Shown here piece by piece: positions 2,500 through 23,497 of a stretch of 64,000 nucleotides of DNA; positions within the stretch are counted from its first letter, which is position 1; each line of letters opens with the position of its first letter. Origin of the DNA: Halpernia frigidisoli. Its GTDB lineage: Bacteria; Bacteroidota; Bacteroidia; Flavobacteriales; Weeksellaceae. The stretch covers positions 248,001-312,000 of the forward strand of contig NZ_FOQT01000001.1 in NCBI RefSeq assembly GCF_900113805.1, read 5' to 3'. Both the position numbers and the translations under genes were made by a program. Below the pieces are notes generated by a model, which saw only the letters and a list, made by a program, of their open reading frames with translations, was not told where the DNA came from and searched no databases.

Positions 2500-3276
2500 A
2501 TGACTTTGATAGAAGATGCAGAGGAAGAAATCATTTTAGTTTCGCCTTATGTTTCAATTTCTGGTTGGACAAAAATGAAAAAATGCTTAGAAAGAGCAGT
2601 TAAAAGAAATGTAAAAATCACATTTTTTGCAAGGGAAAATGCAAAGCAAGATTTAAGTTTTATAAAGCAAATAGGAATAAATCTAATTCTTGTAATGGAT
2701 TTGCACGCAAAATTATATTTGAATGAGAATTGCGGCATCATAACCTCTCAAAATATAAGTCAATATTCAGATACTAATTCAATTGACATAGGTTATGTGA
2801 CTGAAAATATTAGTGAAAGGAAGGAATTGATAGATTTCATAAAGAAGTATGTGGGAAGTATTGATCCTGAAAAAAAAGATTCGATTGCTGAAAAAATCGC
2901 GCAAAAAGATATTGTGGAGAAAATTGAATTAGGTGAAATCGAAGTAGAATACCTCTATAATCGCTTACGTACAAAATATCCTTATTGCAAATTTAAAAAA
3001 ACTTCAACATACGTTTTTTGCGGTGATATTTTAAGTTTTGCAGATGTTATGATAGATAATGAATTAACAATTAAATTTAGAAATAGTTCAATGAATTTTG
3101 AGAAAACACTAAGTAAATTCGAAACATTTAATTTTAAAAATTATTCTTTAGAAAGACTTTCAACGCACAAAACATTTTACTATATAACATTCATTCCGGA
3201 TAATAAATCAGATTTTAAGAAAATTGTCGAGGATATTTTGGAGATAATTAGATTAATTTTAAAAAGTGATATTTGA
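2500..3276 (+). CDS. Phospholipase D-like (HKD) nuclease-family protein, 5' end probably lost
   Basis: Residues 1-120 resemble the single-HKD PLD nuclease fold: a hydrophobic strand (IILVSPYVSIS), then H69-x-K71 in DLHAKLYLN and S83-x-N85 in ITSQN. Single-HKD proteins act as dimers and usually cut DNA or phospholipid bonds; the substrate here is unknown. The C-terminal half (about 125-258) is not recognised. The frame is open for 32 codons upstream of this ATG (from 2404) and reads like protein (for example NKLLNKINYEVYTPLEISSK), but contains no ATG. The original start was therefore probably removed by rearrangement, or a rare start codon is used. Being next to a DUF262-HNH gene and a STAND NTPase suggests a defence role, which is inference only. 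Confidence 0.7.
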   Translation: MTLIEDAEEEIILVSPYVSISGWTKMKKCLERAVKRNVKITFFARENAKQDLSFIKQIGINLILVMDLHAKLYLNENCGIITSQNISQYSDTNSIDIGYVTENISERKELIDFIKKYVGSIDPEKKDSIAEKIAQKDIVEKIELGEIEVEYLYNRLRTKYPYCKFKKTSTYVFCGDILSFADVMIDNELTIKFRNSSMNFEKTLSKFETFNFKNYSLERLSTHKTFYYITFIPDNKSDFKKIVEDILEIIRLILKSDI

Positions 3277-3395
3277 AGAAACTTTAGAAATTAAAATATT
3301 CCAATATTTTATTCCCCCAATTTTTTTTGCAGTATGTAAGACAAAAAGAAATAAAACTATTAATTAGATAAGTTTAAAAAACAAAAAATAATAAA

Positions 3396-4796
3396 ATGCC
3401 ATTTAATCCCAAAACTGAATACACAATAGTTCCAACTGAAATAAGCATAAAAGATTTCTTTGAATATAAAGAAGATTATGTTACAAGACCATCATATCAA
3501 AGAAAAGCGGTGTGGAACAAGAAAAAAAAATTAAGCCTTGATTGATAGCCTTTTTAGAAGATATTATATTCCCAAGTTGGTAATAAGAGAAGTACGTAAA
3601 AATGAATCAACTACAGTAAGTGAAATTGTTGATGGTCAACAAATAATAACCACTGTGCAAGACTTCTTTGACAATAAATATTCGCTGCCAAAGAGTTTAG
3701 CCGATTTAGGAGATAATTTGGCAGGGAAGTTTTATAAAGATTTGGATACAGACATTAAAAAAAAATTTATTGACAAAGCATTAAAATTTCAAGCGGATAA
3801 AATTCAAAACATTGAAATACCGGATAACGTTGAGCATCAGATAATAGCAACAGATATTTTTTGGAGACTTCAACAAGGAGAATCTTTAAACTATATGGAA
3901 ATTGCACATGCCCAAATATCAAGTTTAAGTAGAAATTTTATCGTAAAATATTCAGATGATTTGACTTTTGATTATGATGAATATAAACCAATAGACGAAA
4001 ATCCAGACAAGTTGCCATTTTTCAAATTATTAGATGTTGATAATGATAGAATGAAACATTTACAATTTTTAGCCAGGTTCCTACTGATTGAAAATGAAGG
4101 TGGTTATGCAGATTTAAGTGATAAGAAAATAACAGAATTTATCAATGAACATAAAAATATAAAGGGAATTGGAGACTATTCTTTCGAAGATACCAAAATA
4201 GCAATTGCTGTAAGGAAAAATCTAAGTACATTCTATAATATTTTTAAGAATGATTTTATGATAGATGAAAATAATGGTATAAAAGAATTTTCTACGGAGT
4301 ATTTCATTATTTCAATATATATGCTGATACGCCATTTAAGAATGTTTTATGTTTTAGATGAAAAAAACTCAAGAACGAGTTAAAGATTTTTGTTTATTAT
4401 TTTTAAGAGAGATGGAAAACTTATGATGAAGGCACAGATATGGATTTGCTAACTTTTAGTAATAGAAGACAACAGGGGGAAACGGATTTAGAATCAAGAG
4501 ATATAATTTTACGCCAAATATTTTTCAAGTATTTTTCAGATAATAAGTTTGAACTAATAGAAAATGATACTAGTAGAGCTTTTTCAGAATTACAAAGAAT
4601 ATTGATTTACAGAAAAGGCAAAGGACTTTGTCAGCAATGTCTGAGAGATGGACTTTCAGAAAAAGAAGCATCAGTAAGTTGGTCTAAATATCAAGCAGAC
4701 CATGTTTCACCACATTCAAAAGGTGGAAAAACTGAAATCGAAAATGGAGAGTTGTTATGTTCTCATCATAATTTGTCTAAAGGAGCGAAAGTTTAA
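3396..4796 (+). pseudogene. DUF262 (GmrSD/ParB-like) + HNH endonuclease gene broken by three frameshifts
   Basis: The reading starts at ATG 3396 (MPFNPKTEYTIVPTEISIKD), enters a DUF262 N-terminal domain (RPSYQRKAVW), and must shift frame near 3536-3540 to continue as SLIDSLFRRYYIPKLVIREV. It shifts again in the A7 run at 4361-4367 (DEK-TQERVKDF) and near 4407-4412 (LRE-WKTYDEGTD). It ends in an HNH domain with CQQC, DH, PHSKGG and HHN motifs. Intact relatives are DUF262/HNH proteins of the GmrSD-like type, several of which restrict modified or phage DNA. Besides the frameshifts, the conserved DGQQR motif reads DGQQI (ATA at 3643-3645), losing the arginine. All three shifts correct by removing one base, so either this is a decayed gene or the assembly has small insertions. 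The pieces 3538-4383 and 4440-4796 are open separately. Confidence 0.8.
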
Positions 4797-4825
4797 TTTG
4801 TAATTACTATCAATACTAATTAATT

Positions 4826-5104
4826 ATGAAAAAAAAATATACAAAACAAGAATTTGAAAATCTAGATTTTGACAACAAATGTGCAATATTTGAAACCGTA
4901 CTTACAGACGATTATTTTAGTGGGCAAGAAAAAATAAACTTCTATTTTGATGGTGATATAAATATTAAAGTTTTATCACCAACACCAAAAGAAGAACAAG
5001 AAAGGGAGGATAGAGAATTTAAAGTACTATTGGATAAACTTACTATCAAACTTTTTAGAAGTAATGAGTGGATTGAATTAGATATTGATGAAATTCTAAA
5101 ATAA
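4826..5104 (+). CDS. Small hypothetical protein upstream of the STAND NTPase
   Basis: This 92-residue charged protein has no signal peptide or membrane segment and no domain I recognise. It begins MKKKYTKQEFENLDFDNKC and has an acidic middle (PKEEQEREDREFK). It sits 26 bp upstream of the giant STAND gene on the same strand and 29 bp after the broken DUF262-HNH gene, so it is probably co-transcribed with the STAND gene. Composition matches the island rather than the flanking housekeeping genes. A partner or regulator of the STAND protein is possible, but nothing in the sequence proves it. Confidence 0.6.
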   Translation: MKKKYTKQEFENLDFDNKCAIFETVLTDDYFSGQEKINFYFDGDINIKVLSPTPKEEQEREDREFKVLLDKLTIKLFRSNEWIELDIDEILK

Positions 5105-5130
5105 ATTTTTTAATAAAAACTTCTACTTAA

Positions 5131-8100
5131 ATGAAACAACTCGGAGAAATATCTGCAATCGTTGGTTACAATAAACAATTTGAGGTTTGTGCCATTGAAA
5201 TATATGAAGAATTATTAAACAATAATCTCGAATGGATAGAATTTGCAAGTGCAACTGCAGGTAAAATTGATGATGTACTAATAGGATGCAAAGATTACAT
5301 CAAGGCATTTCAAGTTAAAGATGTAAGTTCAAATCTAACGTATAGTAATTTAACAACACCCAAAAAAAATGCGGGCAAAAGCATTATTGAAGGATGTTTT
5401 GAAGGATGGAAAAATTTAAAAGGAGAATATTCGGAAGTTATTTTGGCAAAATACATATCTAACGAAAAAGCATCTACTAAGGATAAAATTGATTTATACA
5501 AAGGAGATATAAAACCTTCATTTTCTAATTTTTTAGATTGTTTTTGGAACTATTTAAAAAGTTATCCATTGGACACTTTGGAGGAAAATTGGATACCTGT
5601 GTTTAATAATTTAAAAGATATGTGCCATGCGGAAGATGAAGAATTTATTCATTTTATAAAATCTTTCACATTTGTAACAGACAATGAGTATAATGTTCAA
5701 GAAAAGATATATGATTATAATTCTTTTCAGCGAGAAAAAGATATTGATAAAATTTCAAAAAATATTTTCAAACTCATTGGCACTAAAGGAAATAAAAAAT
5801 ATAATAAAAGAGAATTACTTTCTGAATTCAATTTGTTAGAAAGATATGAAACTTATTTTCAACATTCTTTTTTTGTAGATGAGGAACATTATCAACCAAT
5901 AACCGAAACACTTCGAGAATTAAATGATGTTATTGATAAAAATACAAAGGGATATATAGCAATCATTGGTAACGCTGGTTCAGGTAAATCTACATTATTG
6001 ACAAAATGGATAGATGTTGATAGGGATAGAGTTTTAAAATACTATGCTTATGTTAATAGCGAAATGGATTACGACTTTGGATATAGAGGGGAGGCAAAAA
6101 TATTTCTCAAAGATTTACTAATTCAAATAAGAGAAAACTCTTTTTCCATCCAAAAGGAATTGCCTGCAGAAAATTTAGAAGAACTTCAAAAACAACTGTC
6201 TAATGAATTGAAAAATTTACAGAATGATGGAAAGAAAACATATATCATAGTTGATGGATTAGACCATATTGAAAGAGAACAGAACGTTACTAAAAGTTTG
6301 CTTGAAATACTTCCAAATCCTGAAAATATTCCTGACAATGTATATTTTATTCTTGGTAGTAGAACTATAGTTAATTTAGATAATCTACCGGATAAAATTA
6401 AACTTTCACTGAAAAACAATAATTCAATTGTATTTATTAAGCCATTAACTATTCAGCAAATTAAAAACATTACAGATTCCTATGACATAGAATTAGAAGA
6501 ATATCAATTAACTGAACTAAAAGATAATACTCTAGGACACCCATTATTTTTAAGATATACAATTGAAGAATTAATTAAAATTCCAGTAGAAAAATATGAG
6601 GAGTTTATTTCGCAAAAAAGTTTTTCTGGAGATATCTATGATGAATATAATATTTTTTGGAATAAATATAATTTAGAAGAAAAATTTACTGATATTTTAG
6701 GAATCATTTCAAGATTTAGATATTCTTACATTGATATAAATTTATTACCCTTATTTCAAAATGATAAAAGTGTTTTACAAAAAATAAAAAACTTATCAGA
6801 ACATTATTTTTATAAAAATGGAAATATTTGGCAATTTTTCCATAATAGTTTTAAAGAATTTTTAAAAGAAAAAACTTCGGAAAATTTCCTGCTAGAAGAA
6901 TATGATGAAAAAATAAACATAGACTTTCACAAAAAAATATATGAAGTAACAAAAAATATAAACTCTGATTACAAGTATAATATACTGTTTCATCTTTACC
7001 ATGCAAAGGATTATCAATTACTTGTTGAAAGTTCAAATCAATCTTTTTTTAGAGAACAATGGTTTGAGTTTAGAAACTACAAGAAAATTTTGGAAGACAT
7101 AAAACTTTCTGCTGAATCAAGTTATTTTGTAAATGATACAGTAGCATTAATGGATTATTTTCTTTCTTATTCTGAAATTAGCCAGCGAGGAAACAACTTT
7201 CATATTAGTAATTATTACTCAATTTTTCTCAAAGTTGGAAAAATAGATATTGCAAATTCTTTCATATTTAATAATTTTGAATTGCTTGTTTCCAAAACTA
7301 AAGCGCTTGATTATGCAATTGAGTTATTTAAAGTTGGAAATATTGAGTTATCCCAATACTTGCTTAAAAAAGCAGAACCAGATTACATTTTAAATATATC
7401 TAAAAGGGTTTCACCAAATCGTAATGACAGAAATGAATTAACTGACACAGATGAAGTTGAGTTGGTTGTAAAATGGGCAGTACTTTCTTGTATATATTTT
7501 CCCATAGATGAAATTTTGGATAGAATAAAGGTAATCCAAGTTGAAGTAGAAGAATATGGTAGAAAGGAGAGAAGAAATATTGTACACGAAACTTTAGACC
7601 AGTTAAAAAATTTAATTTTTGAAATTGGAGATAAACAAAAATTGAAAGAACTAAATCAGTCATTGGAAAGAATTACTGATTTAGATATGTTTTATTTCTA
7701 CTATGATGTTGTTTTTGAACTAGAGCCAGAAGAGGAGTTATATCAAACTAGTTTGAGTAAATTAATAAACTGGGATGAAACACAAAACAATTCTAAAAAT
7801 AGAAGATTATCAATAATAGAGGCAATAATTAATAAGGATATTGCAAAAAGTTTAGAATATTTTAATAAACTTATAACTCCTTTAGAAATAATTGCAGATA
7901 AAGTAAATACTGAATATTTATCAAGAGATTATTTGTTATATATCTATGATTACTCTAGACTTTATTATATTGGAACTAAAGAATTTTCGGTTGAGTCGAA
8001 AGTTTTAATACCAAAAAATGAAAAGTCAATAGTATCGTCATTTTACAATGAGTTTGCTGAATTAGGAAAATGTTATGCTTATTTATATTATGATAATCCA

Positions 8101-11100
8101 GATGCATCGAAAGGATTTATTTTTCGTATAAATCAGATTCTTGGATATTTTCATCATCAAATAACAGATTACGAATACGAATATACAATACAAGAAAATA
8201 AAGTTAATCTTGTAAGTTTAATTATAAGAAATAGTGAATGGATTTCGCAAAATTTTTTACAAGATATTTTAGAACTAGTTTCAAACGAATGGGCAAATAA
8301 TAATAAATTTTGGAAAGATGATGAGAAGCAAAAGATAATTGATGTTGTGATTGACTTTGACACAGAAAATATTTGGTGCGTAAATGAATTAAATAAAATT
8401 GATGATTATATTTTTGATAGCGTTGATAATTATGCACAAATAGAAAATGGTGTTAAGCAAATAGAATTGTGGAGTAAATTAGAGATGATAAATGAGGCTT
8501 ATAAAATTCTAGAACAATTAATGGAAGTTTCATTTAGTATCAAATATGAGAAGGATTATCAGTTGGATTATTTGTTAAATTGGAATTTAAAGAATGAAAT
8601 GATTGAAATTCAAGAAATTGGATTTATAATAAAATCTTTAAAATCAATAAGTTATAGTACTAATTATGCAAATAAAACACCCGCTGAAGAAATTTTAAAA
8701 TCTTTATGTAGTTTTGGAAATGGTTTTGAAGTTTTTAAGTATTTGTTGTTTGAAGGGCAGGTTAATTTTGGAACTTCTTTAAATATTTCACTTAACTACT
8801 TACTAAACAAACTACCAAGTCAAAAAACTTTAATTGTAAAAATTTTCTCTAGAATTATTTTAAATTTTGATGATGGAAATTCTGCAACTTCAGATTTTAT
8901 TAAAACAATGTTTAATAATGAAATAGATGAAAACATTGTTAAAACTTTAATTAATGAAATTAAAATTTATTCTATAGTTGAAAAAAGAACTGACTATTTA
9001 ATTGAATTAAAGAAATATTGTAATGATAGGAATATGCCTTTAGAAAATCTTGAATTAGATTATAGTGAAAAAGCAAAAGATAGATATTCTTCTAATGATG
9101 ATTATCAAAATTTAAAACTTAAAGATGGAAGATCATTACAAAAAAGTGAGGTTTCCGACATTGCAATTTCTTTTGATGAACTAATTAACTTAATGGAAAA
9201 TGAAAATTCTAACAGTTATTTTAAATGGTCTGAAATTTTAAATGGTGTTTTACCAGTTCTTACATTACAGCAGATTGAAATAATAATAGAGAAAAAATCT
9301 TTTGATAGTGTTGAATTAACTTCAATAGCCCAAGGAATTTATAATCATTTTGGGGATAAAATATATGTTAAAAGTTTAATTCAAAAGGCATTAGACAAAT
9401 CAAAAACTTCAGGATGGCAAGTTTATTATGATGGAGGTAGTATAATTAAACCTTTAGAATTACTAAAAATAGTTGATGATTCAGAAGCACATATTGCATT
9501 CAAAAAATTTGCAGAAAATATAGAATTTGTGAATTTTGGAAATGGGTTTTCAAATAATATAGATGATATTTTCAAAATTTTTGATAATGATTTTACTTAT
9601 AATAAATACCATCCTGTTATAAGTGAGTATCTAAAAGAACTTTTAAAAAATAGTTATCGTAATACTGACATTCCTGATCTTGAAGGAAATTTGGAACCTG
9701 AAGATTTCCTTTTAAAAACTATTCAGTTTTTATTCGAGTTCCCTTCCTATTTTGATGAAATATTAATTGAGATATTAGCAGAAGAATTAGTACAAATTAA
9801 ATCAATTGTCACACAAATACTTGCCTTTTTAAACAAAAGTAAAATGGAGTGGCAATATATAAGTTTATTAGCGACAATTAGTTTAGTGGATGTGGAATTT
9901 ACCCGAAATTATCAAAACGGCATACTTAATATTTACAATCATCCAAGATTTGATTTACATTTAATTGCAGAAAGGATTTTAGATAGGCTTAATTTTGATT
10001 ATGCTAGTCTAAATAGGCCAAATACCTTAAAAATTCCTCTAACCTATACCATAGAACTTAATTATAAACCAGAATTGGTAATCTCCGATAAGATTAGAAT
10101 GAAAAGGCTTGACCAAACAGGATATTTAAGAAATACCAATGATCCATTGGAATACTGTCATCTATATCTTAATGAAATCAGTAAGATATCTAGAGAATCA
10201 GGGTTTGAAAAAGTTAATATTGCATATAGAATAATGAATTTGGGTAATTCAAATTTTACTCAACCTTCTTGGTATAGGGGATTATCTGAAAAAGAAATAA
10301 GAGATATTTATGAATATAAATTTGATCTAAAAATTTCTTACAAAAGACCACAATATCAAAAAGTTTGGTGTGGTCTAATGATGGTTTTAAAGGAATTACT
10401 AGACCTTGAAATAATTAGTTACGAGTTAGCATTCGTAATAGGAGATAATTTTGATGAAAGTATTTCTCAAATTCAAGTTCAACCAAAACCACTATTTATA
10501 CCATCTATATTAAAAAAAGATGATTATGCACCTTATGCAGAAGTAGGATGGGTAGATAAACTTGATAATGAATACTTAACTAAAAATACAATATTTAATG
10601 TTTCTGAAAATTTATTTATCCTGGAAGAAAACACTTTTATTGAAGGACAGGGTGATGGTCTAACATTAGAAAGAAGACAAGCCTTTGTTGATTTTAATGA
10701 ATTTAAGAATAATTTGCAATATACCTTGATTTTTAATTCTTCAAATAAACGCCACATATTAGATTACGAATCGATACAAATTCAATCACTTTGTTTTTTT
10801 AATTGGTCATGGTATTCCTTTAATAAAAAAATAAACTGGTTAGCATTTAACCCAATGATTGCTCACGATTTGGGTCTTAAATTAAGTGCTACTGGAAATT
10901 TTAGATGGTTGGACGAGAATGGAATAACTGTTATTGAATCTATATTTTGGAAAAGTAATGATTTATCAAATAAAAGTAGAAATCTACATTCTGAATCTGG
11001 ATACGGATGGTATGTTACGATTACAAATGACGGTATAAGCCGATTAAAAAATATTGGTATAAATACTCTTTACCAACACACGAAAATTTTTAGAACTATG

Positions 11101-11178
11101 AAATTCAAACAAAGAAACTACGGAACAGAAATAGATGAGGAGAATAGTGAGTTTGATATAAGAATTATTAGTTTATAA
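5131..11178 (+). CDS. Giant STAND NTPase with N-terminal PD-(D/E)XK (Cap4/DUF4297-like) nuclease domain, Avs-like
   Basis: This 2015-residue protein has three parts. Residues 1 to about 200 look like a Cap4/DUF4297-type nuclease: an opening GYNKQFEVCAIEIYEELL helix, acidic residues near E37 and D47-D48 (KIDDVLIG), and a Q61-x-K63 pair (FQVKD), matching a D...QxK core. Residues about 270-580 form the NTPase: Walker A GNAGSGKS (280-287), Walker B IIVDGLDHI (372-380), sensor-like SRT (410-412), GHP motif (469-471), and a winged-helix end with FFHNSFKEFL from 569. The remaining 1400 residues are mostly helical, repeat-like sequence becoming more strand-rich after about 1630, where such proteins carry their sensor. 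In Avs/STAND defence proteins, phage-protein binding to the sensor region drives oligomerisation and activates the effector. That this one does so is inferred from architecture and island context. The gene is intact and very A+T-rich. I cannot assign it to a named Avs type. Confidence 0.8.
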   Translation: MKQLGEISAIVGYNKQFEVCAIEIYEELLNNNLEWIEFASATAGKIDDVLIGCKDYIKAFQVKDVSSNLTYSNLTTPKKNAGKSIIEGCFEGWKNLKGEYSEVILAKYISNEKASTKDKIDLYKGDIKPSFSNFLDCFWNYLKSYPLDTLEENWIPVFNNLKDMCHAEDEEFIHFIKSFTFVTDNEYNVQEKIYDYNSFQREKDIDKISKNIFKLIGTKGNKKYNKRELLSEFNLLERYETYFQHSFFVDEEHYQPITETLRELNDVIDKNTKGYIAIIGNAGSGKSTLLTKWIDVDRDRVLKYYAYVNSEMDYDFGYRGEAKIFLKDLLIQIRENSFSIQKELPAENLEELQKQLSNELKNLQNDGKKTYIIVDGLDHIEREQNVTKSLLEILPNPENIPDNVYFILGSRTIVNLDNLPDKIKLSLKNNNSIVFIKPLTIQQIKNITDSYDIELEEYQLTELKDNTLGHPLFLRYTIEELIKIPVEKYEEFISQKSFSGDIYDEYNIFWNKYNLEEKFTDILGIISRFRYSYIDINLLPLFQNDKSVLQKIKNLSEHYFYKNGNIWQFFHNSFKEFLKEKTSENFLLEEYDEKINIDFHKKIYEVTKNINSDYKYNILFHLYHAKDYQLLVESSNQSFFREQWFEFRNYKKILEDIKLSAESSYFVNDTVALMDYFLSYSEISQRGNNFHISNYYSIFLKVGKIDIANSFIFNNFELLVSKTKALDYAIELFKVGNIELSQYLLKKAEPDYILNISKRVSPNRNDRNELTDTDEVELVVKWAVLSCIYFPIDEILDRIKVIQVEVEEYGRKERRNIVHETLDQLKNLIFEIGDKQKLKELNQSLERITDLDMFYFYYDVVFELEPEEELYQTSLSKLINWDETQNNSKNRRLSIIEAIINKDIAKSLEYFNKLITPLEIIADKVNTEYLSRDYLLYIYDYSRLYYIGTKEFSVESKVLIPKNEKSIVSSFYNEFAELGKCYAYLYYDNPDASKGFIFRINQILGYFHHQITDYEYEYTIQENKVNLVSLIIRNSEWISQNFLQDILELVSNEWANNNKFWKDDEKQKIIDVVIDFDTENIWCVNELNKIDDYIFDSVDNYAQIENGVKQIELWSKLEMINEAYKILEQLMEVSFSIKYEKDYQLDYLLNWNLKNEMIEIQEIGFIIKSLKSISYSTNYANKTPAEEILKSLCSFGNGFEVFKYLLFEGQVNFGTSLNISLNYLLNKLPSQKTLIVKIFSRIILNFDDGNSATSDFIKTMFNNEIDENIVKTLINEIKIYSIVEKRTDYLIELKKYCNDRNMPLENLELDYSEKAKDRYSSNDDYQNLKLKDGRSLQKSEVSDIAISFDELINLMENENSNSYFKWSEILNGVLPVLTLQQIEIIIEKKSFDSVELTSIAQGIYNHFGDKIYVKSLIQKALDKSKTSGWQVYYDGGSIIKPLELLKIVDDSEAHIAFKKFAENIEFVNFGNGFSNNIDDIFKIFDNDFTYNKYHPVISEYLKELLKNSYRNTDIPDLEGNLEPEDFLLKTIQFLFEFPSYFDEILIEILAEELVQIKSIVTQILAFLNKSKMEWQYISLLATISLVDVEFTRNYQNGILNIYNHPRFDLHLIAERILDRLNFDYASLNRPNTLKIPLTYTIELNYKPELVISDKIRMKRLDQTGYLRNTNDPLEYCHLYLNEISKISRESGFEKVNIAYRIMNLGNSNFTQPSWYRGLSEKEIRDIYEYKFDLKISYKRPQYQKVWCGLMMVLKELLDLEIISYELAFVIGDNFDESISQIQVQPKPLFIPSILKKDDYAPYAEVGWVDKLDNEYLTKNTIFNVSENLFILEENTFIEGQGDGLTLERRQAFVDFNEFKNNLQYTLIFNSSNKRHILDYESIQIQSLCFFNWSWYSFNKKINWLAFNPMIAHDLGLKLSATGNFRWLDENGITVIESIFWKSNDLSNKSRNLHSESGYGWYVTITNDGISRLKNIGINTLYQHTKIFRTMKFKQRNYGTEIDEENSEFDIRIISL

Positions 11179-11204: not shown

Positions 11205-11251
11205 AAAATTGGGTGGTATTAATATAACTTACTGATAAACAGTACTATTTG

Positions 11252-11338
11252 TAGAGAGGATGGGATTCGAACCCACGGTACAGTTGCCCGTACACTAGCT
11301 TTCCAGGCTAGCTCCTTCAACCACTCGGACACCTCTCT
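11252..11338 (-). tRNA. tRNA-Ser (anticodon GGA)
   Basis: The 87-base gene folds into a full class II tRNA. The acceptor is AGAGAGG/CCTCTCT, the D-arm region reads TGTCCGAGTGGTTGAAGGA, the anticodon stem is CTAGC/GCTAG with loop CTGGAAA (anticodon GGA), there is a long variable arm, and the T arm is GGGTTCGAATCCC. No CCA is encoded. Its 3' end faces the accessory island, a usual position for integration hot spots, but its 3' end does not match the tRNA-like fragment at 2175-2195. Confidence 0.95.
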
Positions 11339-16427: not shown

Positions 16428-17324
16428 TTAATCGGTTAATGTTAGTTCCATAGCAAGAATACAGTAACTATTTGTATTAGTCGTTATATCTTTAATCACT
16501 GGCTCCCAATTGTTACCTCTAAAAATTTTTGTCTTATTTTCATCCTGATTTAGGATAGTTCCGAACGAAGGAGAGTATGATTTGCCTAACAGTTTTTCGC
16601 TACTATTTTTAGTGGTATATTTATATTCATATAAATTTTTTTGATTTTTGATCCAATCTACAGCGATAAAAATTCCACTTTGAGGAATTGTGACATTTGT
16701 GAATGATAAATCTACCTCAGTTTTATGTTTACCTTTTTTTGCAATTCCAATAATGTTTTTGTTATATAATTCATTCGAAGGATTACCATAATTATCAACC
16801 GAATAAACTCTAACGTTGAATATTGCATTTTCCACATTGCTTTTGGTTAAAATTTTTATCTTTTTCAAAAATTTATTTTTGTAAGATTTGTTTCCAAAGA
16901 ATTTTCCGATTATCCACGATGAATTTTGTGTCGCAGATAATCCATAGTATTGATTGATTTTGGATGCTTTAAATTCGTCAAGCAGTATTTCATTTTGGTT
17001 TTTTCTTTTAAATAGAATAACTTCTTGCAATAGTTTTTCTTTCGGAATAAGTTCTATTGTAGAATTGTTTTGCGTTAAATCAAGTCTGATTTTTTCATAT
17101 CCCACAGCGTTTATTAAAACTTGAGATTTCTTTTCAAAAAAGAAATTTCCTAAAGAATCAGATGACGTTCCGAAATCACTATTTTGAGATTTTATGTTAG
17201 CATAAATGACCGGTGTTTTATCAATGCCGTCAATCAGCAAAAACTTAGAAAGTTGTGCATTTACGAAAAATGTGTTTAAAACGAAAAATATTAATATTAG
17301 ATGTGTCTTCATAAAATGTTGCAT
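16428..17324 (-). CDS. Secreted carboxypeptidase-regulatory-like domain protein
   Basis: An N-terminal signal peptide (LILIFFVLNTFFVNA) leads into a CarboxypepD_reg-like beta-sandwich (residues about 25-90: VIYANIKSQNSDFGTSSDSLG, then VLINAVGYEKIRLDL). The remainder is strand-rich and unassigned. Such proteins in Bacteroidota are exported and often sit at the cell surface; no enzymatic residues are visible. The called start is MQHFMKTH; the second Met, four codons in, gives a more usual signal peptide. It lies about 100 bp from the GLPGLI gene on the same strand, so the two may be co-regulated. Confidence 0.7.
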   Translation of the reverse strand: MQHFMKTHLILIFFVLNTFFVNAQLSKFLLIDGIDKTPVIYANIKSQNSDFGTSSDSLGNFFFEKKSQVLINAVGYEKIRLDLTQNNSTIELIPKEKLLQEVILFKRKNQNEILLDEFKASKINQYYGLSATQNSSWIIGKFFGNKSYKNKFLKKIKILTKSNVENAIFNVRVYSVDNYGNPSNELYNKNIIGIAKKGKHKTEVDLSFTNVTIPQSGIFIAVDWIKNQKNLYEYKYTTKNSSEKLLGKSYSPSFGTILNQDENKTKIFRGNNWEPVIKDITTNTNSYCILAMELTLTD

Positions 17325-17424
17325 TATGTTTTGTGGCTTTGCGATGGTGTCGCTTAGAATCTAAAATATTTAAACTTGCGAAAATATCTTAATATTGCAA
17401 AACCGATGTTATAAGATGTTTCTT

Positions 17425-18252
17425 CTAGTCCTCTAATTCAATCGGATTAAATCCATTCTTCCTCGTTTCATTTTTTCTCGGTTTTTCTTTTTGGTCGTTG
17501 AAAAATTGAGTGCCCATAGACTCAAATTCGTGTTTAGCATTCGCTTTAAAATTTTCCTTTGCTTCAATTAAGTCTTTGCTTGTGGTTATTTTCGCATTTT
17601 TATAATATATTCCACTTACTGATACAAGTTTGCCCTTCAATTTGGAACTTGGTATTGATCTTACCAATTCAAAATCGTAATCTCCAGTTCTATCAGTTAT
17701 TTTGACAATCAAACCTGGTAGGCCGCTAAATTTATAAGGACCATAGGGAAAGGGGATTTGGGTTGAATACCAGGCAATCCAATCTCTTCCTTTATATCTT
17801 ACTTCTGCTTTTTCACAAACAATTGAATTAATGACTTTAGTTTCATCAATCAGATTCCATTTATCGATTATTGGGGTCGTATATGTTAATAAAGTCATTC
17901 CTACTGTCGTGTAATATTTAAAGTCATCATTTGTTTGGATGATTACATAACTTGATGATTTCAGGGATGAAAGATTTGTCAAATCAATCTTTGCATTTCC
18001 TTTGTTATATTCTGTAGTAAAAAGCGAATCAAATTTTAACTTGTTTTCACTGATGAAAAATGCGCGTCTGTCACTTATTTGAAGTGAAAAAAGTTCCTTG
18101 TAGACGTAATCTGGACTTAAACTATTGGGTTTACATTGAAGCAAATAAGTGAATTTACCCCGTAGAGAGTCATTTTTAGAAGTCTGGGAAAAAGATAATG
18201 AGAAGAATAATAAAAATATAATTTTTAGAATTTTGCATTTTTTTGAATTCAT
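17425..18252 (-). CDS. GLPGLI family protein
   Basis: The family signature FSGLPGLIVKI is present, followed by DRTGDYDFEL. GLPGLI proteins are secreted Bacteroidota proteins of unknown function. I place the start at the ATG at 18252 (MNSKKCKILKIIFLLFFSLSFSQ), which gives a clean signal peptide; the frame is open 13 codons further to 18291, but that extension would put a charged hydrophobic mix ahead of the signal. WNLIDETKVINSIVCEKAEV in the middle is also typical. The C-terminus (NETRKNGFNPIELED) matches the usual family ending. Confidence 0.88.
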   Translation of the reverse strand: MNSKKCKILKIIFLLFFSLSFSQTSKNDSLRGKFTYLLQCKPNSLSPDYVYKELFSLQISDRRAFFISENKLKFDSLFTTEYNKGNAKIDLTNLSSLKSSSYVIIQTNDDFKYYTTVGMTLLTYTTPIIDKWNLIDETKVINSIVCEKAEVRYKGRDWIAWYSTQIPFPYGPYKFSGLPGLIVKITDRTGDYDFELVRSIPSSKLKGKLVSVSGIYYKNAKITTSKDLIEAKENFKANAKHEFESMGTQFFNDQKEKPRKNETRKNGFNPIELED

Positions 18253-18442
18253 AAAAAGTAAATTAAGAAGAACCGCCCAAAGTGAGCACAAACTATATCT
18301 GAACGATTGATTGATTTTTATTTTAGATTAAAATGGTGAATCAAAACTTGATCTATTTGAAATACAAGTGATGATTGTGGTTTTTAAGGTTGCCAAGTTT
18401 AAATAGCGATTATCTTTAAAAATGTCACTAATTCGAGAAGTG

Positions 18443-18607
18443 TTATCCCATTTTCCAGCGCGTATCTTTCAAATCCTTCTGTTCTTCTTTAGTCAAAAAA
18501 GTCCACCAACGTCCAATATGTTTTGATCTACCAATTAATTCTGCGACCGCAAAATAAATTGCGCAAAATAATATAATTGGAATAACTATATCGTATCGAG
18601 TATCATA
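18443..18607 (-). pseudogene. Possible remnant of a small membrane protein gene
   Basis: Within the 585-bp gap between the GLPGLI gene and mazE, a 54-codon open frame on the minus strand reads like a small membrane protein: a hydrophobic segment (IVIPIILFCAIYFAVAELIG), then GRSKHIGRWWTFLTKEEQKD and a basic end. The GRSKHIGRWW motif recalls small membrane proteins of this group. No ATG is available and a stop precedes the frame directly, so it is probably a 5'-truncated remnant. The rest of the gap (to 18836) shows only the mazEF control region. Confidence 0.35.
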
Positions 18608-18798
18608 TTACTGTTTTTTGAGGTGAAGTATAAAAATTTCCAACAACTAGTTTATGTGCTCTATTAATGAAATAAATACACCGATTTTTGTAAAGTTTTG
18701 TCTCACGTTTTTTAATTTTTTATAACTCAAATATAGTAATAATCTTAATATTTAAAAGTTTAGAATTAAAAATAATTACAGCAAATGAATAACTAACT

Positions 18799-18817
18799 GT
18801 TATAATTTTGTTATAAC
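18799..18817 (+). promoter_or_regulatory. Putative mazEF operator and promoter
   Basis: GTTATAA (18799-18805) is repeated as the perfect palindrome GTTATAAC (18810-18817), and a TAATTTTG box (18803-18810, TAnnTTTG) lies between and overlaps both. The site is 20 bp before mazE. An antitoxin-bound operator covering the promoter would explain the layout, as in other autoregulated toxin-antitoxin operons. Confidence 0.5.
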
Positions 18818-18836
18818 TTTACTAAAAATTAATTTT

Positions 18837-19088
18837 ATGACCACAAAATTGAGAAAAATAGGAAATTCTTCCGGTATTATTTTAAGTAAAATAATTTTAG
18901 AAGAACTGAATATTGAACCTAAAGATGAATTAGAATTGATTGTTGAGGACGGCAAAATTTTAATTCAAAAAATAACCGAGCCAAGACAAAACTGGAAAGA
19001 ACAATTCTTAAAAGCCGGTTCTTTGAAAGATTTTGATAATGAAATGACTTTCTCAAACAAATTTGACGAAGAAGAATGGACGTGGTAA
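18837..19088 (+). CDS. mazE: MazE-like antitoxin (AbrB/SpoVT swapped-hairpin fold)
   Basis: The N-terminal 45 residues form an AbrB-type DNA-binding hairpin (LRKIGNSSGIILSK, then DELELIVEDGKILIQKI). The C-terminal tail is acidic and ends FDEEEWTW, the usual toxin-neutralising part. At 83 residues the length is normal. Its last codons overlap the toxin start by 13 bases, giving translational coupling. It would bind MazF and repress its own operon through the palindromes upstream. Confidence 0.88.
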   Translation: MTTKLRKIGNSSGIILSKIILEELNIEPKDELELIVEDGKILIQKITEPRQNWKEQFLKAGSLKDFDNEMTFSNKFDEEEWTW

Positions 19089-19402
19089 AAAGATTTGAAA
19101 TTTATTTCGTAGAATTTGATCCCACAAAAGGTTCAGAAATAAATAAAACCAGACCGGGCGTAATTCTCTCGCCAAATGAAATGAACGACGCATTAAATAC
19201 AGTTATCATGTCACCTTTGACTACTTCTTTAAAAAATTATCCGTCGCGGGTAAACTGTAAAGTGAAGGGAAAAGACGGTCAAATTGCATTAGACCAACTT
19301 CGCTGTGTTGATAAATCGAGATTGAAAAATAAACTGGCAAAATTATCCGAAAATGAACAATCTGACGTTTTTGAAGTTTTGAAAAAAATGTTTTCTTTAT
19401 AA
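19076..19402 (+). CDS. mazF: MazF/PemK-family endoribonuclease toxin
   Basis: The MazF fold is clear: KRFEIYFVEFDPTKGSEINKTRPGVILS at the start (with the KxRPG-type active-site arginine), TVIMSPLTTS in the middle, and GQIALDQLRCVDKSRL near the end. MazF toxins cut single-stranded RNA at short sequences. The length of 108 residues is typical. Overlap with mazE places it in a two-gene operon. Its cleavage specificity cannot be read from the sequence. Confidence 0.92.
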   Translation: MDVVKRFEIYFVEFDPTKGSEINKTRPGVILSPNEMNDALNTVIMSPLTTSLKNYPSRVNCKVKGKDGQIALDQLRCVDKSRLKNKLAKLSENEQSDVFEVLKKMFSL

Positions 19403-19414
19403 TGCATTCTTTAT

Positions 19415-22393
19415 TTACTTTAAAGCCGGTTTCATTTTATATTCTTCCCAAAGCACTTCAAGACTTTTCCCCGTATTTTTCTTCCAGAAATCTGGCGTGT
19501 AATTATTATTCCTCGCATCACTATCTAATTTTATAATTAAATTTTTGTCATAATTTTGAGTGAGCCAAACAAAGAATCTTGCGGTAATTCGGTAAGAATT
19601 ATCAAAATTATTTTCTGGTTTTAGATCGGGCATTTTCCAATTTGCTTTTTCGTTATTCACGCCTTCCGTCGCGCGGACATAATCTGCAACGCCTTCTGTA
19701 AGCCAATTTGGGATTTTTTCATCTTTATAATTTTGAACGATGTGCATCAATTCGTGTGTGATTACATCCAAATCTTAGGGGTTTTTTGCAAACCATTCCG
19801 GGTTAAATGTGATGATGCCGTTGTCAGTTTCCGCCACGCCTTTATAATTTTTATCAATAACGAAGGTGACTTTTTTCAAAGAATTTTTGTTGTATTTATG
19901 TATAAGTTTTGGATATTGCAGAAAATACATATCTACAAATCTTTGCTTATAAGCATTTGTAAAAACCGAATGATTATCGATCAACATTAATGAAAGATCG
20001 CCTTTTGTTTCATTAATGATTTGATTTTTAAACATCGAACGATCTGAAGTTGTCGTCTTTTGATTTAGTTCTTTATAAATTGGTTCATTTTTAGAGAAAG
20101 AATAAGGCAGATCGCTGTCCGAATATTTTCTATTTTCATTGGGTTTTACGCCCATTTCAAAATCTAAAGTTCCACCTTTTAGCATTTCGAAATGATTTAA
20201 AAATGTCTTAGAATAATTTTTTCCATTAAATTTTTGAGAAGAAATGTATTTATTTTCAGCACTGTTTTTTGGCGCGTTAATGACAAACTTTTTACCATTT
20301 TCAAAAGTCAAAGTTATTTTTTTAAATAGTGGCGCACCAATTACGTATTCGGGTGTAGCGGGACAAACTGGATAAAATCCCATCGCAGAAAAAACATACC
20401 AGGCGCTTGTTTGGCCATTATCTTCGTCGCCGCAATAGCCATCCGGCGTGGGTTGATACATTCTGTTCATTGTTTCCCGCAGCCAGTATTGCGCTTTGTA
20501 AGACTGTTCCGCATAATTATAAAGATAGATCATGTGTTGAATGGGCTGATTGCCGTGGGCATACTGTCCCATATTTGCGATCTGCATTTCCCGAATTTCG
20601 TGAATGGTTCCGCCGTAATAACTGTCGTCAAAATCCGGCGCCATAGAAAAAACGGAGTCCAGCATTTTTGCAAAAACTTTTTTTCCGCCCATTAAATTTT
20701 GTAATCCATTGATATCATGAAAAACGCTCCATGTGTAATGCCACGCGTTTCCTTCCGTAAAAGCATCGCCCCATTTTAGCGGATTAAATGGACTCTGAAA
20801 AGTGCCGTCAAAATTTCTTCCGCGCATTAAATTAGTTGATTTATCGAAAACGTTTTTATAATTCAGCGCCCGTTGTGCATATTTTAATTTAATGCTTTTA
20901 TTAATGTTTTTATCTTTTATAAACTGATAAATACTGAAATCATCGTAAGCATATTCTAATGTTCGTGCAGCATTTTCATTGATATTCACATCATAAGGAA
21001 CGTAGCCAATTTTATTATAATAATCAACGCCAAATCTTCCAACTGCGCTCATCGGGCCTTCCTTATTGGCACCATTTTCAAGAGCATTCCATAAAATTTC
21101 AGTGTCCTGATCCGGAATTTTTTTAATAAAAGCATCCGCCACGACCGACGCAGAATTATTACCTATCATAATATCCGAAAAACCCGGACTGCTCCATTCC
21201 GGCAAAAATCCGCCTTCCCGATAATCATTAGCCAAACCTTGCTGCATTTCTGAACTTATTTTCGGATTTAATAAATTAATTAAAGGATATAAAGCGCGAA
21301 AAGTATCCCAAAAACCGGTTCCGCCAAACATATAGCCGTTCTCAATTTTCCCATTATAAGGTGAGTAATGTACAATTTTCCCGGTTGCATCTTTTTCATA
21401 TAATTTGTTTGGAAATAAAGCAGTTCTGTAAAGGCAACTGTAAAATGTTCTGGTCTGTTCGTCTGTTCCGCCTTCTACCAAAGCTTTTCCTAAAATATCA
21501 TTCCATAACTGATGTGTTTCTTTTTGAACTTCTGTAAAAGTTTTATTGCCGACTTCCCTTTTTAAATTGAGTTCCGCTTGTTCTAAACTGATGAAAGATG
21601 ACGCCACCTTTGCGGTCACAATTTGATTTTTTTTAGTAATATTAAAACCAACCACCGCGCCGGAATGCTCGCCCGTAGTTTCAAGTTGACCTAATAATTC
21701 TTCTTTTTGCCAGGTTTTCATTTCGGAAAAAGGCGTGTCAAAAGTGATGACAAAATAATTGGCAAAATTTTCCAGTTTTCCTCGTCTGTAATATTTATTG
21801 TAACCGATAATTTTATTTTCTGAAGGAATTATTTTAACATGACTTCCTTTGTTAAAAGCGTCCAAAACCACATAAGAATCTGCTTTTGTGCCGAAAGTAA
21901 ATTTAAAAATTGCCGCTCTTTCAGTCGGTGTAATTTCTGTGGTAATATTGTAATCAGCGAGATAAACGCTGTAATAATCTGGTTTGGAAATTTCAGATTT
22001 GTGGCTGAACCAACTTTGTCTTTCTTCTTCTTTAAATTTTAATTTTCCTGAAATTGGCATTAAGGAAAAAACACCATAATCGTTCATCCACGGACTTGGT
22101 TGATGAGTTTGTTTAAATCCACGGATTTTTTCTTCAGAATATCTGTATTGCCATCCATCGCCATTTTTCCCGGTCTGCGGCGTCCACATATTCATTCCCC
22201 AAGGTGTGGAAATTGCGGGATAAGTGTTTCCGTTAGACAGATCTGGTTTAGAAAATGTGCCCATTAATGGATTGACGTATTTTACCAGGTCTTTTTCCTG
22301 CGCAAATAAAATGGAATTTGAAAATAAGGAAGAAATAAAAAGCAGTGATAATTTGAAACTTTTCGTCATTGGATTGGATTTAAAAACAGTCAA
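19415..22393 (-). pseudogene. GH92 alpha-mannosidase fused to a basic secretory protein domain, split by an in-frame stop
   Basis: Residues 1 to about 790 are a GH92 exo-alpha-mannosidase: signal peptide (ATG at 22369 preferred, SLLFISSLFSNSILFAQ), VNPLMGT, FWDTFRALYPLINLL, and the CGDEDNGQTSAWYVFSAMGF motif near the general acid. From about 795 a plant-type basic secretory protein (BSP) domain begins (VFTNAYKQRFVDMYFLQY). After NPEWFAKNP comes TAA (19775-19777), and then the same frame continues as DLDVITHELMHIVQ with the HExxH-like zinc motif and runs to 19415. One base change (for example GAA or AAA to TAA) thus separates most of the BSP domain. The GH92 part may still be made and active; the 118-residue tail lacks its own credible start. 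Whether the lesion is real or a sequence error cannot be decided here. Confidence 0.85.
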
Positions 22394-22585
22394 TATTTTG
22401 CTAAAGTACTAAAAATACAAGTCAAACTTTAAGAAAGGAAAAGAACTTAAAAATTGTTTTAAAACATTGAAAATTTAAATTTTATGATGGAAAATCTAAA
22501 ATAATACCTTCTATATCAATTCAGTTAATATTATTACATTATTAAATTTTAATTTCATTATATTGTCAACTACAAAATATAAAAG

Positions 22586-23497
22586 ATGGATCTGAACACG
22601 ATGTCTGGTTTAATATCAGGAAAACTCACAAACTGGACTGAAGCACTTATCAAATTGCTTCCAAACATCATTTTGGCAGCTGTCATATTGGTGCTTGGCA
22701 TTTACATTTCTAAGTTTGTACGCAAAATATCTAGGAAAATTATTGGTAAAGTTTCCTACAACGTCACTTTGAATAATCTTTTCAGCTCCATCATTTATCT
22801 AGTGGTAATGGGCGTTGTTATCTTCACTGTTCTCACTGTTTTACAGTTGGATAAAGCGGTAACTTCGATTTTGGCGGGTGCGGGAATTTTAGGTTTGGCT
22901 TTGGCTTTCGCTTTTCAGGATATTGCTTCAAATTTCATGTCGGGAATTTTTATTTCTTTCAGAAAACCTATAAAAGTAGGAGACATCGTGAAATTGAAAG
23001 ATTATATGGGAAAAGTGATCGAGATCAATTTGAGAGATACGGTGATTCAGACTTTTGAAGGGCAAACGATTATAATTCCTAATAAAGAGGTTTACCAAAA
23101 CGCAATTGATAATTATTCTTTCATCGCTAAACGTCGCTTAGATTTAAAACTTGGCGTTTCTTATGGTGATGATCTGGCAAAAGTTCAGGAAATTACTAAA
23201 AAAGCAGTTTCTGATCTGGAAAATCGCGCTATGGAAGATGAAATTACCGTTTTCTTTGTAGAATTTGGCGACAGCTCGATCAATTTATCCTGTAGAATTT
23301 GGTTAAATTCCTCAGAACAACCAGTTTTCGTAAAGGCAAGAAGCGAAGCGATCATGAAGATAAAAGCAGCGTATGATGCAAATGATATCATGATTCCGTT
23401 TCCGATCCGTACTTTGGATTTTGGAATAAAAGGCGGTACAACGATGACGGAAATGCCGGTCGCTTTTTTAAGTAAATCTGAGAATAGCGGTGATTAA
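22586..23497 (+). CDS. MscS-family small-conductance mechanosensitive channel
   Basis: This is an inner-membrane channel opening under membrane tension. There are three membrane helices (about 22-44, 62-85, 90-115); the third is Gly/Ala-rich (ILAGAGILGLALAFAFQDIASNF) as in the MscS pore helix. The beta domain follows (VGDIVKLKDYMGKVIEINLR, FEGQTIIIPNKEV), then the C-terminal alpha-beta domain. At 303 residues it is close to E. coli MscS. The gene stands alone, upstream of dgt on the same strand. Confidence 0.93.
   Translation: MDLNTMSGLISGKLTNWTEALIKLLPNIILAAVILVLGIYISKFVRKISRKIIGKVSYNVTLNNLFSSIIYLVVMGVVIFTVLTVLQLDKAVTSILAGAGILGLALAFAFQDIASNFMSGIFISFRKPIKVGDIVKLKDYMGKVIEINLRDTVIQTFEGQTIIIPNKEVYQNAIDNYSFIAKRRLDLKLGVSYGDDLAKVQEITKKAVSDLENRAMEDEITVFFVEFGDSSINLSCRIWLNSSEQPVFVKARSEAIMKIKAAYDANDIMIPFPIRTLDFGIKGGTTMTEMPVAFLSKSENSGD

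Follow-up and report, generated by a model that had tools for sequence, protein, structure and literature searches.

The window, a stretch of 64,000 nucleotides from Halpernia frigidisoli, encodes a GH92 mannosidase joined in one frame to a basic secretory protein (BSP) domain that is cut by a single in-frame stop codon. On the best explanation of the data, the fusion is uncommon but real, and the lesion in it is of an ordinary, recent nonsense kind: with a probability of about 0.7, the lineage of the window would have gained horizontally a GH92-BSP fusion like those seen in Lacibacter and its kin, and a single nonsense change would later, and recently, have struck within its BSP domain. An earlier sequence-only reading had anticipated the fusion, the loss of the zinc site, and a whole GH92 part, all of which stand, and intact relatives of the fusion exist; the probable horizontal origin, the position of the stop inside the BSP domain, and the absence of decay after it had not been foreseen.

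The interrupted reading frame

The gene occupies positions 19415-22369 (-) as one reading frame from an ATG, with a single interruption, a TAA at 19775-19777, which is the sole stop within 984 codons before the normal frame end; around it, the frame reads ...NPEWFAKNP*DLDVITHELMHIVQ... The previous claim that this codon lies midway in an otherwise continuous frame is borne out by the frame, the stop, the Pfam domains, and the relatives. As for the span then given, 19415-22393, its 19415 end holds, and 22393 is a mechanical TTG start that gives way to the ATG at 22367-22369, the beginning of a signal-peptide-like N-terminus (judged by eye). The open frame left by the TAA (19778..22369, minus strand) encodes 864 aa, comprising this N-terminus, both GH92 domains, a linker, and the N-terminal lobe of the BSP domain. 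The GH92 part corresponds to residues 1-755 (20105..22369, minus strand), and the BSP lobe, still joined to the GH92 product, to residues 788-864 (19778..20008, minus strand), a segment that aligns to eight intact fusions from other bacteria. The TAA itself (minus strand) stands at residue 865; in the BSP model described below, this is between one helix (87-92) and the helix of the active site (99-109). The codon is followed by 119 codons for the C-terminal part of BSP (19415..19774, minus strand), with the HExxH motif and an invariant downstream Glu, and then by the normal terminal stop; translation of this part is not expected.

Pfam searches place PF17678 (2.4e-64) and PF07971 (1e-162) upstream of the TAA and PF04450 (1.3e-21; profile positions 105-207) downstream. 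Read through the TAA, the sequence matches PF04450 with 81.7 bits (cut-off, 23.8) over profile positions 53-207, with one TAA inside; because this match begins at profile position 53, the stop falls inside the BSP domain and not between two domains. Both parts share a single open frame in each of the eight fused relatives, and the alignment of the window with these runs through the TAA without a change of frame, which argues that the joining is not due to chance. The TAA was also considered as the boundary of two independent genes, an option rejected since the codon lies inside the BSP fold and the eight relatives are open there.

The GH92 part that remains

The GH92 domains score far above their curated cut-offs (PF17678, 217.9 bits versus 34.5; PF07971, 542.8 versus 24.6). 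The best solved match, 2wvx (BT3990), covers query residues 26-761 with 1060 bits and spans both domains, and the TEGN and GDEDNG motifs, which presumably hold the catalytic residues of GH92, are identical in the two proteins. The window product thus resembles GH92 exo-alpha-mannosidases of the 2wvx type over both domains, with the motifs kept, but differs from 2wvx in bearing a C-terminal BSP remnant, and the match to the solved chain stops short of that remnant. The GH92 enzyme is therefore predicted to be intact, and the product would probably be secreted and retain alpha-mannosidase activity, which in GH92 is calcium-dependent and of the exo type. The genome contains two further GH92 frames, with 37% and 32% identity. 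In one of these paralogues, on contig C2, a flagged TAG hinted at a second broken gene, a candidate that was rejected; the ORF is complete, with 758 aa, and ends at this TAG.

The BSP domain and its active site

Residues H102, E103, H106, and E122 are invariant among 36 aligned BSP sequences, headed by that of the window read through the TAA (position 95), and all of them come after the stop; E122 may be the third metal ligand. The stop at residue 865 precedes HELMH, so that HExxH is absent from the ordinary translation product, in line with the sequence-only reading that the mannosidase would be left and the zinc site dropped. The peptidase site is accordingly not expected in the product of the window fusion, its peptidase function would be lost, and the leftover BSP lobe is likely to be unfolded or trimmed.

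An AlphaFold model of the read-through BSP domain (mean pLDDT, 92.5) has as its best Foldseek match Lugdulysin of the M30 family (1.9e-5), and in VIA-align the Z scores of M1 aminopeptidases reach 15.5 (205 aligned residues, rmsd of 3.8). The predicted fold is thus of the gluzincin type, related to those of M1 aminopeptidases, M30 peptidases, and clostridial collagenases, although identity in the listed VIA-align matches is 10-18%, and likeness of fold is no proof of function. At the sequence level, the PDB has no match to the read-through BSP part up to an E value of 1. The post-stop DNA matches the BSP family PF04450 (Pfam name "Peptidase of plants and bacteria"; PRp27 and PR-17 in plants) and includes its HExxH, but the domain of the window differs from the family in being fused to GH92 and cut ahead of that motif. 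A profile search revealed no other PF04450 match in the same genome. For plant PRp27, labelling by a hydroxamate probe is reported to need the HExxH motif and immunity to be independent of it (PMC9322406); another paper describes BSPs as frequently having substituted HExxH sites (PMC3650047). Motif-independent immunity and substituted sites together mean that peptidase activity in the BSP family is not settled.

Intact fusions in other bacteria

The sequence-only reading had proposed a search for the intact fusion in relatives, against the alternative that the two parts are always separate genes. Uninterrupted GH92-BSP fusions with the order and frame of the window are present at eight loci (L034, L035, L036, L175, L176, L177, L178, and L180), some of them closely alike: L176 and L177 are 99% alike, and L034 and L175 are 94% alike in GH92. 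One more locus, L181, is the Lacibacter locus again and is not counted. Three of the fusions, from Lacibacter luteus, Flavisolibacter longurius, and Chitinophagaceae UBA4857, come from a set of 80 loci, selected among 478 confirmed stretches of genome contigs that were found with a query containing both parts. The five others (L175, L176, L177, L178, and L180) come from genomes of a single family, taken to be Chitinophagaceae because two genomes of this family (G954 and G801) share contig places with the loci of Lacibacter luteus (L034) and Chitinophagaceae UBA4857 (L036). Two 745-aa frames among the matches in this family did not show both domains together in the fetched DNA.

Separate neighboring genes are more common than fusions. 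A BSP match is present in 34 of the 80 kept loci, a figure that is biased because the query held both parts, and in only 3 of these 34 are GH92 and BSP in one frame; among the 30 best BSP loci in Chitinophagaceae, out of 57 match rows, 7 are one-frame fusions. In the 31 unfused loci of the 34, GH92 and BSP are separate frames on one strand, within 100 bases of each other in 25 cases (measured between open frames), with BSP after GH92 in 6 loci and ahead of it in the rest. Six separate BSP frames inspected by eye have a signal-like start of their own that is absent from the fused ones, which makes fusion by loss of a short gap plausible. Our literature search found no paper joining GH92 with a basic secretory protein, and none joining the plant basic secretory protein with Bacteroidetes; the fusion may be recorded elsewhere.

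The surroundings of the fusions vary. At four loci (L034, L175, L176, and L177), a second, divergent GH92 gene comes directly after the intact fusion, and its open frame overlaps that of the fusion; at L036 and L178, a second GH92 gene follows the fusion after about 1.2 and 0.7 kb, respectively, and in the window, none follows it. A fusion of the reverse order, with BSP ahead of a different type of GH92, is found at L179 (3980-6949, plus strand), and in L119 it is preceded by a SusD-like ORF (judged by eye).

Association of BSP with GH92

When the query lacked the GH92 domain, BSP matches were found in 48 of the 294 Chitinophagaceae genomes (57 match rows). Among the 30 best loci from these rows, GH92 is located within 1.5 kb in 25; apart from the one-frame fusions, a separate GH92 gene lies nearby in 18 of the remaining 23, and in 14 of these 18 loci every match is on the same strand. 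In a sample of the whole phylum, a BSP match is present in 11 of 395 genomes, including that of the window, and of the 11 loci besides the one in the window, 4 have GH92 nearby, two of them in Chitinophagaceae. Outside that family, this leaves 2 of 9 loci, so that the GH92-BSP link is strong in Chitinophagaceae and weak in the small outside sample.

The occurrence of BSP genes beside or inside GH92 genes suggests a working partnership and, on the basis of genomic association only, points to a possible joint attack of the two on glycoproteins. A broader proposal is less likely than not: in Bacteroidota, bacterial BSP might serve GH92 mannosidases as their peptidase partner, working with them as one secreted unit on mannosylated proteins and fused to them more than once (as GH92-BSP and, in L179, as BSP-GH92), with the unit in the window losing the peptidase. 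Fusion and gene order in some Bacteroidota tie BSP, a family whose action as a peptidase is poorly established, to GH92. This tie names mannosylated protein as a BSP substrate to test, and the intact fusion and the truncated form offer a natural pair for testing the partnership.

Age and reality of the stop

Conservation after the stop was assessed in 85 rows, including the window, with fifteen loci that repeat others left out; tblastn rows starting after residue 45 or ending before residue 200 of the BSP query, as well as duplicates, were dropped. Downstream of the TAA, the window keeps 39 of the 42 columns conserved at 90% or more, and the three departures (I for V, V for I, and F for Y) are conservative, each being found in other rows. 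At the 80% level, it keeps 46 of 54 post-stop residues, the fifth lowest value of the 85 rows, a rank that could be explained by its long branch. Identity to L034 is 42/77 (0.55) before the TAA and 70/119 (0.59) after it; the respective values for L176 are 0.52 and 0.56. In simulated drift, the probability of no new stop together with at most 3 of 42 columns changed is 0.136 at 0.05, 0.0185 at about 0.08, and 0.005 at 0.10 substitutions/site, and the dS values of two flanking genes to the sister genome G001 are 0.84 and 1.11. With no decay after the stop, and with the simulation set against the flanking dS, the stop is either recent or a base-call error.

The latter reading, in which the TAA stems from wrong base calling or assembly and the fusion is intact in the organism, is unlikely. 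It fits the lack of decay and the fact that the frame has no other stop in its 984 codons, but the assembly, in 11 contigs, has a completeness of 99.5%, and frameshifts, the more common kind of assembly error, differ from the lesion seen here. The same conservation of the second half, along with a TTG one codon past the TAA, might be taken to mean that both halves are made and used, through readthrough of the TAA or a restart at that TTG. This we regard as highly improbable, as a restart product would have neither a signal peptide nor the N-terminal lobe, the TAA lies within the fold, and all eight fused relatives are open at its site.

Origin of the gene

A GH92 tree of 96 rows was built from the 80 loci (L034-L113), five of L175-L180, ten of the 29 fetched loci from the window's own family, and the window. 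It places the window in a six-row set with fused L034, L175, L176, and L177 and the unfused Arcicella locus L040 (SH-aLRT, 100), while the ten own-family rows form another set, also with support of 100. By identity, the nearest GH92 is that of Arcicella (69%); the window, L040, and the fused rows meet in a fork without a settled order, and no end branch in the tree is longer than that of the window (0.57). The Arcicella gene bears on the idea that the domain loss was adaptive, with the lineage shedding the peptidase half because GH92 alone suffices. It belongs to the same six-row set and ends shortly past the GH92 part, and no BSP was seen in the fetched DNA of the 29 own-family GH92 loci besides the window (L005-L033). 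However, L040 may represent the pre-fusion state, and a lone lesion without decay is indistinguishable from drift, making adaptive loss quite unlikely.

Horizontal acquisition of the fusion followed by a recent nonsense change agrees with the distribution of the gene. PF04450 is present in 2 of 320 genomes of the family, that of the window and G253, where it is free-standing. In G001, the only further genome of the genus examined, nothing matches the window protein. G001 keeps the flanking genes (95% for gcvP and 87% for an HD-domain gene) and has two other ORFs between them; the window proteins from 16428 to 23497 have no match in the fetched G001 stretch. Given the rarity of BSP in the family and the absence of the gene from the sister genome, the fusion was probably acquired horizontally. 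Composition gives no clear sign of transfer, GC3 of the three segments of the gene being 0.30-0.33, compared to 0.24-0.37 in 17 other segments.

A MazE/MazF-type toxin-antitoxin pair (18837-19402, plus strand) lies convergent with the fusion gene and 12 bases from its end, within the interval in which the window and the sister genome differ. Farther away, at 2500-11178 (plus strand), the window has a possible defence island that adjoins tRNA-Ser (11251-11338) and includes a STAND-type ATPase of 2015 aa that partially matches Avs1b (1.4e-23); among neighbors of this ATPase, there are partial matches to a type II restriction enzyme (2.1e-09) as well as to MkoB (8.8e-07) and NsnA (1e-16).
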